64,000 nt of DNA, from assembly GCA_021817245.1 (NCBI GenBank), contig JAKAVQ010000010.1:24583-88582 (forward strand). The letters run 5' to 3'. Below, in pieces: positions 56,491-56,769 of the stretch (position 1 is the stretch's first letter; every line of letters begins with the position of its first letter). The notes beneath the pieces were generated by a model, which ran no database searches, was not told the DNA's origin, and saw only the letters and a program-made list of their open reading frames with translations. This DNA comes from Thermoplasmata archaeon. Its GTDB lineage: Archaea; Thermoplasmatota; Thermoplasmata; Lutacidiplasmatales; UBA184. The position numbers and the translations under genes are program-made.

Positions 56491-56635
56491 TGCGGGGGGC
56501 CGGAATCCCCGGCCGCCGGTCCACGGAACCGGTCGGCCCTTTGAACCGGCGCATGCCCTAGGCAACAGGGTCCTAAGCCCTGCCTCGTAGGCCCCGCCGT
56601 CCTTCGACGGTTTGGCCGAGCTGGAGCACCCCCGC
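56491..56635 (-). tRNA. tRNA-Leu(UAG) with two non-canonical introns (D-loop 56588-56611, T-loop 56505-56539)
   Basis: Acceptor GCGGGGG/CCCCCGC, anticodon arm CAGGG-CTTAGGA-CCCTG, variable stem TGCC/GGCA, T-stem GCCGG/CCGGC split by 35 nt, D-stem CTC/GAG split by 24 nt. Predicted mature: GCGGGGGTGCTCCAGCTCGGCCAACGAGGCAGGGCTTAGGACCCTGTTGCCTAGGGCATGCGCCGGTTCAAATCCGGCCCCCCGCA. Confidence 0.88.
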
Positions 56636-56662: not shown

Positions 56663-56769
56663 TAGCCCCGGCAGGAGTCTCGGCCGGCGGAGTTAGGAGC
56701 GTCCGCGGCGTTCGAACCTGCGTCGCGAGATCCAGAGTCTCGCATGATTGGCCACTACACCACGGGGCT
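56663..56769 (-). tRNA. tRNA-Gln(CUG) with a non-canonical T-loop intron (56677-56710)
   Basis: Acceptor AGCCCCG/CGGGGCT, anticodon arm CGAGA-CTCTGGA-TCTCG, T-stem GCAGG/CCTGC separated by TTCGAA + 34 nt + T. BHB: TTCG pairs with CGAG, GCCG pairs with CGGC, with 3-nt bulges at both junctions. Confidence 0.92.

Follow-up and report, generated by a model that had tools for sequence, protein, structure and literature searches.

The window, by which we mean the whole 64,000-nt stretch of DNA analysed here, carries on its minus strand a tRNA-Gln(CUG) gene that is interrupted inside the T-loop by an intron at position 59/60, and beside it a tRNA-Leu(UAG) gene that contains two introns (Table 1). 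Read from its 5′ end, the tRNA-Gln(CUG) gene consists of AGCCCCGTGGTGTAGTGGCCAATCATGCGAGACTCTGGATCTCGCGACGCAGGTTCGAA, the intron CGCCGCGGACGCTCCTAACTCCGCCGGCCGAGAC and TCCTGCCGGGGCTA. The exons alone make up a complete tRNA, with an acceptor stem paired at seven of seven positions (AGCCCCG/CGGGGCT), a T-stem paired at five of five and the anticodon CTG. The predicted spliced product is 73 nt long and folds as a cloverleaf, while the unspliced form has 107 nt. A canonical 37/38 intron was ruled out, as the insertion lies at 59/60.

Table 1. Coordinates of the two interrupted tRNA genes and their parts, numbered from the first letter of the window.
Feature	Position	Strand	Evidence or remark
tRNA-Gln(CUG) gene with T-loop intron	56663..56769	(-)	sequence and fold; kept in 83 of 95 sampled family genomes
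tRNA-Gln(CUG) 5′ exon, tRNA positions 1-59	56711..56769	(-)	near-frozen across family f1
tRNA-Gln(CUG) intron, 34 nt, position 59/60	56677..56710	(-)	sequence given in the text
tRNA-Gln(CUG) 3′ exon, tRNA positions 60-73	56663..56676	(-)	sequence and fold
Outer helix h, 5′ strand (T-stem GCAGG)	56717..56721	(-)	pairs with CCTGC, 56671-56675; fold
Central helix H, 5′ strand (T-loop TTCG)	56713..56716	(-)	99-100% paired, 71 distinct introns
Central helix H, 3′ strand (intron CGAG)	56679..56682	(-)	comparison of 71 introns
Inner helix h′, 5′ strand GCCG	56706..56709	(-)	pairs with CGGC, 56683-56686; compensatory changes
tRNA-Leu(UAG) gene with two introns	56491..56635	(-)	27 nt downstream of tRNA-Gln(CUG); not reported by the original prediction, ARAGORN or Rfam
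tRNA-Leu(UAG) D-loop intron, 24 nt, about 21/22	56588..56611	(-)	bulges AA^A and TA^C; H = GGCC/GGCC
tRNA-Leu(UAG) T-loop intron, 35 nt, position 59/60	56505..56539	(-)	strict scan, fold

The minimum-energy fold of the T-arm together with its intron is composed of the T-stem, a 4-bp helix (TTCG/CGAG) and an inner helix starting GCC/GGC, and it places two 3-nt bulges, AA^C and AC^T, on opposite strands with the 4-bp helix between them. Both bulges, the central helix and the flanking helices h and h′ of a strict hBHBh′ motif are thereby present. The original prediction had placed a 34-nt intron at this site, with coordinates that are exact on the minus strand, and had described its splice motif as near-perfect, which the fold confirms. 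Its pairings are likewise correct, but its helix names are not; conventionally, H denotes TTCG/CGAG, h′ denotes GCCG/CGGC, and h denotes the T-stem GCAGG/CCTGC. The mature T-loop that it proposed, TTCGAAT, is the one found in the intact CUG genes of the class.

Within the window, the pattern for the interrupted 3′ half of tRNA-Gln(CUG) has one match where 0.00 are expected, and a strict whole-gene scan returned two matches, tRNA-Gln(CUG) and tRNA-Leu(UAG), compared to a mean of 0.2 in dinucleotide shuffles. The strict whole-gene scan was preferred because loose criteria yield many chance matches in GC-rich DNA. Neither ARAGORN nor Rfam at its gathering cut-off reported the tRNA-Gln(CUG) gene; a permissive Rfam search scored it at 23.4 bits, below the cut-off, and misplaced its 3′ end inside the intron. 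The earlier expectation that annotation tools would miss the gene is correct for these two programs and probably incorrect for tRNAscan-SE, whose archaeal mode looks for non-canonical introns (PMC8450103). tRNAscan-SE has been run on a member of the same genus, and tRNAs for all 20 amino acids were reported (PMC9287336). Elsewhere in the window, a TPP riboswitch is found at 2558-2668 on the minus strand (61.5 bits).

The neighbouring tRNA-Leu(UAG) gene varies among relatives. Two of them (L043 and L258) lack exactly its D-loop intron and read CCAACGAGGC, which is the predicted spliced sequence, and in genus g17 its T-loop is intact and reads TTCAAAT. The arrangement of tRNA-Gln(CUG) and tRNA-Leu(UAG) as a pair is kept in many relatives.

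The original prediction had named a second, intact tRNA-Gln(CUG), together with a missing spliced product, as what would refute its reading; we found no such copy in the window's genome. BLAST within the genome returned the tRNA-Gln(CUG) gene and tRNA-Gln(UUG) alone, the latter intact, and the intact-CUG pattern had no match there. Of 400 genomes of the class, 83 match the interrupted pattern; all 83 belong to family f1, from which 95 genomes were sampled, and the other 305 genomes have no match. The intact pattern is present in 138 genomes, 134 of them outside f1 and four in the f1 genus g21. None of the 400 genomes has both forms. Eight f1 genomes, with completeness of at most 88%, have neither form, and the assemblies compared are draft MAGs. 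The intron is 34 nt long in nearly all of f1 and 31-35 nt long in a few genera. Records of the same gene come from Thermoplasmata MAGs recovered in acid soils and comparable places. One of them is Candidatus Lutacidiplasma silvani AcS3-62, where the match occupies contig positions 83321-83393, as it does in genome G188, which is listed under the genus of the window's genome. The window's genome is itself a Thermoplasmata MAG of the Lutacidiplasma group, whose genomes are GC-rich and about 2.1 Mb in size (PMC9287336). In 28 ORFs of the window, CAG is used 178 times versus 17 times for CAA.

In the four g21 genomes (G192, G252, G264 and G288), the intact tRNA-Gln(CUG) has the T-stem ATCGG/CCGGT in place of GCAGG/CCTGC. 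The intron was lost along with this alteration of the T-stem, for which recombination with a different tRNA may be responsible. Other tRNAs of g21 still contain T-loop introns, and because the genus combines these with an intact tRNA-Gln(CUG), loss of the Gln intron does occur.

Comparison between relatives gives stronger evidence than the chance estimates for the window. Among relatives, 71 distinct 34-nt introns are carried by just four exon sequences, with the introns varying freely, while the central-helix pairs remain 99-100% paired and the first three h′ pairs hold in 100, 82 and 93% of sequences, both partners of the pairs showing changes. Extending the comparison to 22 T-loop-intron tRNAs of eight kinds, 93.7% of cells are paired, and covariation is 0.739 compared to 0.226 when shuffled and at most 0.175 when slid. 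Introns in UUCG tRNAs end in CGRR and form four central-helix pairs, the C being conserved. Introns in UUCA tRNAs end in GGRR and form three pairs plus A57.G, except in the tRNA-Asn of G018 (UGAA); a G is retained opposite A57 where a U would pair. The splice motif of tRNA-Asn is poorer in two of three genomes. Some T-loop intron sites, those of the UUCA tRNAs and of tRNA-Asn, thus depart from the strict motif. Two tRNA-Asn genes (L269 and L270, on contigs C17 and C15 of G000) lie near contig ends and have introns with a degraded central helix; they could be strain variants or binned contaminants.

The original prediction considered a single gene, and its view of the tRNA-Gln(CUG) intron as real stands, but it was too narrow. 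According to the strict scan, at least 14 tRNA genes of the window's genome, with 13 anticodons, have 59/60 introns: Gln(CUG), Leu(UAG), Asp, Asn (two genes), Glu(CUC), Gly(UCC), Ala(GGC), Arg(UCU), Arg(UCG), Lys(UUU), Ser(GCU), Ser(GGA) and Ser(CGA). Eleven of the 13 interrupted kinds are present in each of two relatives. With at least 14 genes interrupted at 59/60, a large part of the lineage's tRNAs would have to be cut and rejoined there. Moreover, the tRNA matches of the window's genome include interrupted copies of the Asp and Asn genes and no intact one, from which we infer that T-loop splicing is very likely essential in this organism.

Those of the interrupted genes that lie beyond the window, at least 12 in number, were recorded at G000 loci L269-L279 and L320-L322 and include the only Asp and Asn genes found. 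D-loop insertions are also seen in the window's genome, in Arg(GCG) (two genes), initiator Met and Lys(UUU). His, Pro and Trp tRNAs were not recognised among its tRNA matches; these may have several introns each or may lie in assembly gaps.

A covariance model of class-I T-loop-intron tRNAs separates interrupted from intact class-I genes of the window's genome at about 62-65 bits, and gives lower scores to tRNAs with long variable arms or extra introns. The model has matches in all 95 f1 genomes, from at least two to at least nine in each, counts that are lower bounds since at most nine candidates were scored per genome. Outside f1, most of the inspected matches are real 59/60 introns, of which a genome has one or two, with examples in Arg(UCU), Arg(CCG), Ala(CGC), Gly(CCC) and Lys(UUU); two other inspected matches are intact tRNAs, and a further one resisted parsing. 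The possibility that all model matches outside f1 are intact tRNAs was consequently rejected. The interruption of tRNA-Gln(CUG) at 59/60 is also found in records from Hadesarchaea, Micrarchaeota, Woesearchaeota, Aenigmatarchaeota and Thorarchaeota, with the central helix in nearly all of them. Therefore, the T-loop is a recurrent site of interruption, and f1 is the place of its expansion. At seven Hadesarchaea loci (L062, L079, L093, L123, L139, L141 and L165), the Gln(CUG) 59/60 intron has about 20 nt and an apparent second insertion lies in the 5′ half of the anticodon arm. Pattern matches in three bacterial records (L094, L131 and L164) were regarded as chance.

The window's genome also contains genes for the expected splicing machinery. 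PF01974 is found at one place, in a 354-aa frame with two domains that corresponds to EndA and matches the A. fulgidus EndA (1r0v/2gjw) at about 4e-27 as well as the EndA entry 5x89; an RtcB gene is present. On these matches, the single EndA gene found is assigned to the two-domain α′2 type. A 542-aa open frame had suggested an EndA fusion, which was rejected, the likely gene being 354 aa long with the usual two domains.

The catalytic domain of this EndA reads YGSRVGDRLELSLLEA. The loop before its first strand, YGSRVGD, is equal in length to the YGSEKGD of A. fulgidus, and there is therefore no CSL- or ASL-like insertion at that place; relative to the EndA of the window's genome, the A. pernix chain 3p1z does have the insertion, a Lys-bearing loop that marks broad-specificity EndAs. 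Aligning the EndA of the window's genome to a same-order enzyme revealed no family-specific insertions. That enzyme and the solved structures led us to reject the gain of a special loop by the EndA of family f1. The broad-specificity loops CSL and ASL have been linked to rich sets of non-canonical introns, and the α′2 EndAs of A. fulgidus and T. acidophilum are listed as narrow (PMC6379350, PMC12397907). An EndA without broad-specificity loops fits the strict splice motif of the introns.

We propose a mechanism in which the T-arm itself provides half of the splice site. In the tRNA-Gln(CUG) transcript, the T-stem would act as the outer helix, and the UUCG of the T-loop would pair with the CGAG near the intron's 3′ end. 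EndA would make its cuts in AA^C and AC^U, the two bulges, and ligation of the exons by RtcB would yield the mature tRNA with the T-loop UUCGAAU. More generally, the T-stem and UUCRAA, which are near-constant in elongator tRNAs, would contribute the whole of h, one of the two strands of H and, in the first bulge, the exon part. All that would be needed from the intron is a short hairpin ending in (C/G)GRR-NN, with a 3′ end that pairs with UUCR and is followed by two bases. The T-loop would in effect be a universal exon half of the splice site, used in at least 13 tRNA species. The constancy of the T-stem and UUCRAA would explain why so many tRNAs are interrupted at one position, and why introns with a variable body have a near-fixed 3′ end.

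We are highly confident that the only tRNA-Gln(CUG) found contains an archaeal BHB intron at 59/60, which the encoded EndA would cut out and whose flanking exons RtcB would join. We favor, with more reserve, the broader proposal that a narrow-type α′2 EndA without CSL or ASL operates here on a T-loop that has been turned into a general splice site with a near-strict BHB.

Other readings have to be weighed against these proposals. If the insertion were never removed, the gene would be a decayed copy or would specify a giant T-loop tRNA, and CAG codons would be read through wobble by tRNA-Gln(UUG), which is indeed intact in the window's genome. However, a decayed or unspliced gene is hardly credible when the exons are near-frozen while the introns vary freely, when the splice helices covary, and when no sampled genome has both an interrupted and an intact tRNA-Gln(CUG); the only Asp and Asn genes found are interrupted as well, and wobble could not replace them. 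The intron could instead have its own function, for example by acting as a guide RNA or by forming a small regulatory circle. Its length is almost fixed at 34 nt in most of f1, and some archaeal tRNA introns, such as that of tRNA-Trp, contain box C/D RNAs (PMC4090602). Yet the inner intron sequence is hypervariable, inspection revealed neither a C nor a D box, a box C/D RNA would not fit into 34 nt, and hairpin geometry accounts equally well for the fixed length; we consider an independent function very unlikely.

Two further readings concern the origin and persistence of the introns. Protection from integrases is a proposed role of tRNA introns, and T-loop introns, which split the T-arm and the 3′ end, could be kept as a shield of the tRNA 3′ half, the attachment site, from the integrases of viruses and plasmids. 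A passive ratchet, with gain in the absence of benefit, accounts for the pattern equally well, and selection for such a shield appears rather unlikely. Alternatively, the set could have arisen by copying one intron from tRNA to tRNA instead of by independent gains, a process described for Thermoproteales by Fujishima 2010 as cited in PMC4090602. That at least 13 tRNAs share a single position and a single template would agree with copying, and paralogous introns of one genome score slightly above shuffles (mean score of 1.46 versus -0.18). This similarity is nevertheless weak; paralogues and shuffles reach the same top score (9.0), orthologues resemble each other more (4.41), and scores are inflated by GC-rich hairpins. 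Copying at some point in the family's past is thus conceivable, but we lean against it. Recent copying of the Thermoproteales type is unsupported because paralogous introns are barely above shuffles and orthologues are somewhat closer, and near-identical introns in different tRNAs of one genome are absent.

Several features of the f1 introns have counterparts in known systems. Position 59/60 is among the listed non-canonical positions of archaeal tRNA introns (PMC4090602), and the known 59/60 BHB introns resemble those of f1 in having an hBHBh′ motif and, presumably, in using the same enzymes. Crenarchaeota and Nanoarchaeota are described as the rich sources of non-canonical introns, while euryarchaeal tRNAs with introns have one each, at the canonical 37/38 (PMC4090602); unlike this picture, f1 is a Thermoplasmata family with 59/60 introns. 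The Thermoproteales, like f1, have a large share of non-canonical introns and some two-intron genes (PMC8450103, PMC4033280). Their introns, however, occupy many positions, are alike between tRNAs and are processed by an (αβ)2 EndA bearing a CSL loop, whereas in f1 the T-loop dominates, paralogous introns are only weakly similar and the EndA is α′2 without CSL. The Asgard archaea Atabeyarchaeia and Freyarchaeia, which like f1 are uncultured soil lineages, have non-canonical introns in most of their tRNA genes; PMC11291895 gives 92-95% of tRNA genes, a higher share than in f1, and several introns in over half of the genes. The α′2 EndAs of Ferroplasma and Thermoplasma, homodimers of a two-domain protein, come from the class of archaea to which the window's genome belongs. 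The Ferroplasma EndA cuts minimal BHB substrates (PMC8707768) and the Thermoplasma EndA is listed as narrow (PMC6379350), but the enzyme of the window's genome is longer (354 aa).

A literature search, covering few subscription papers, yielded no description of a T-loop expansion in Thermoplasmata, and the paper on the order Lutacidiplasmatales makes no mention of introns. Position 59/60 and large sets of non-canonical introns were already known; what is notable is the expansion at a single position together with a narrow-type EndA.

These findings point to T-loop splicing in a lineage whose group's relatives were thought to have no introns at that place. For those who analyse such genomes, tools that are blind to T-loop introns will make members of this acid-soil group seem deficient in tRNAs, with every Asp and Asn tRNA among the missing ones. 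In reviews, rich sets of non-canonical introns are tied to EndAs that bear special loops, and the introns of euryarchaea are said to be single and located at 37/38 (PMC4090602, PMC6379350, PMC12397907). Family f1 makes this EndA-loop rule directly testable, as it offers one enzyme and about 13 natural substrates. If the proposed mechanism is true, an intron-rich, non-canonical tRNA set would be possible without a broad-specificity EndA, and the position of introns would be limited by where the strict motif can form, and not by the enzyme.
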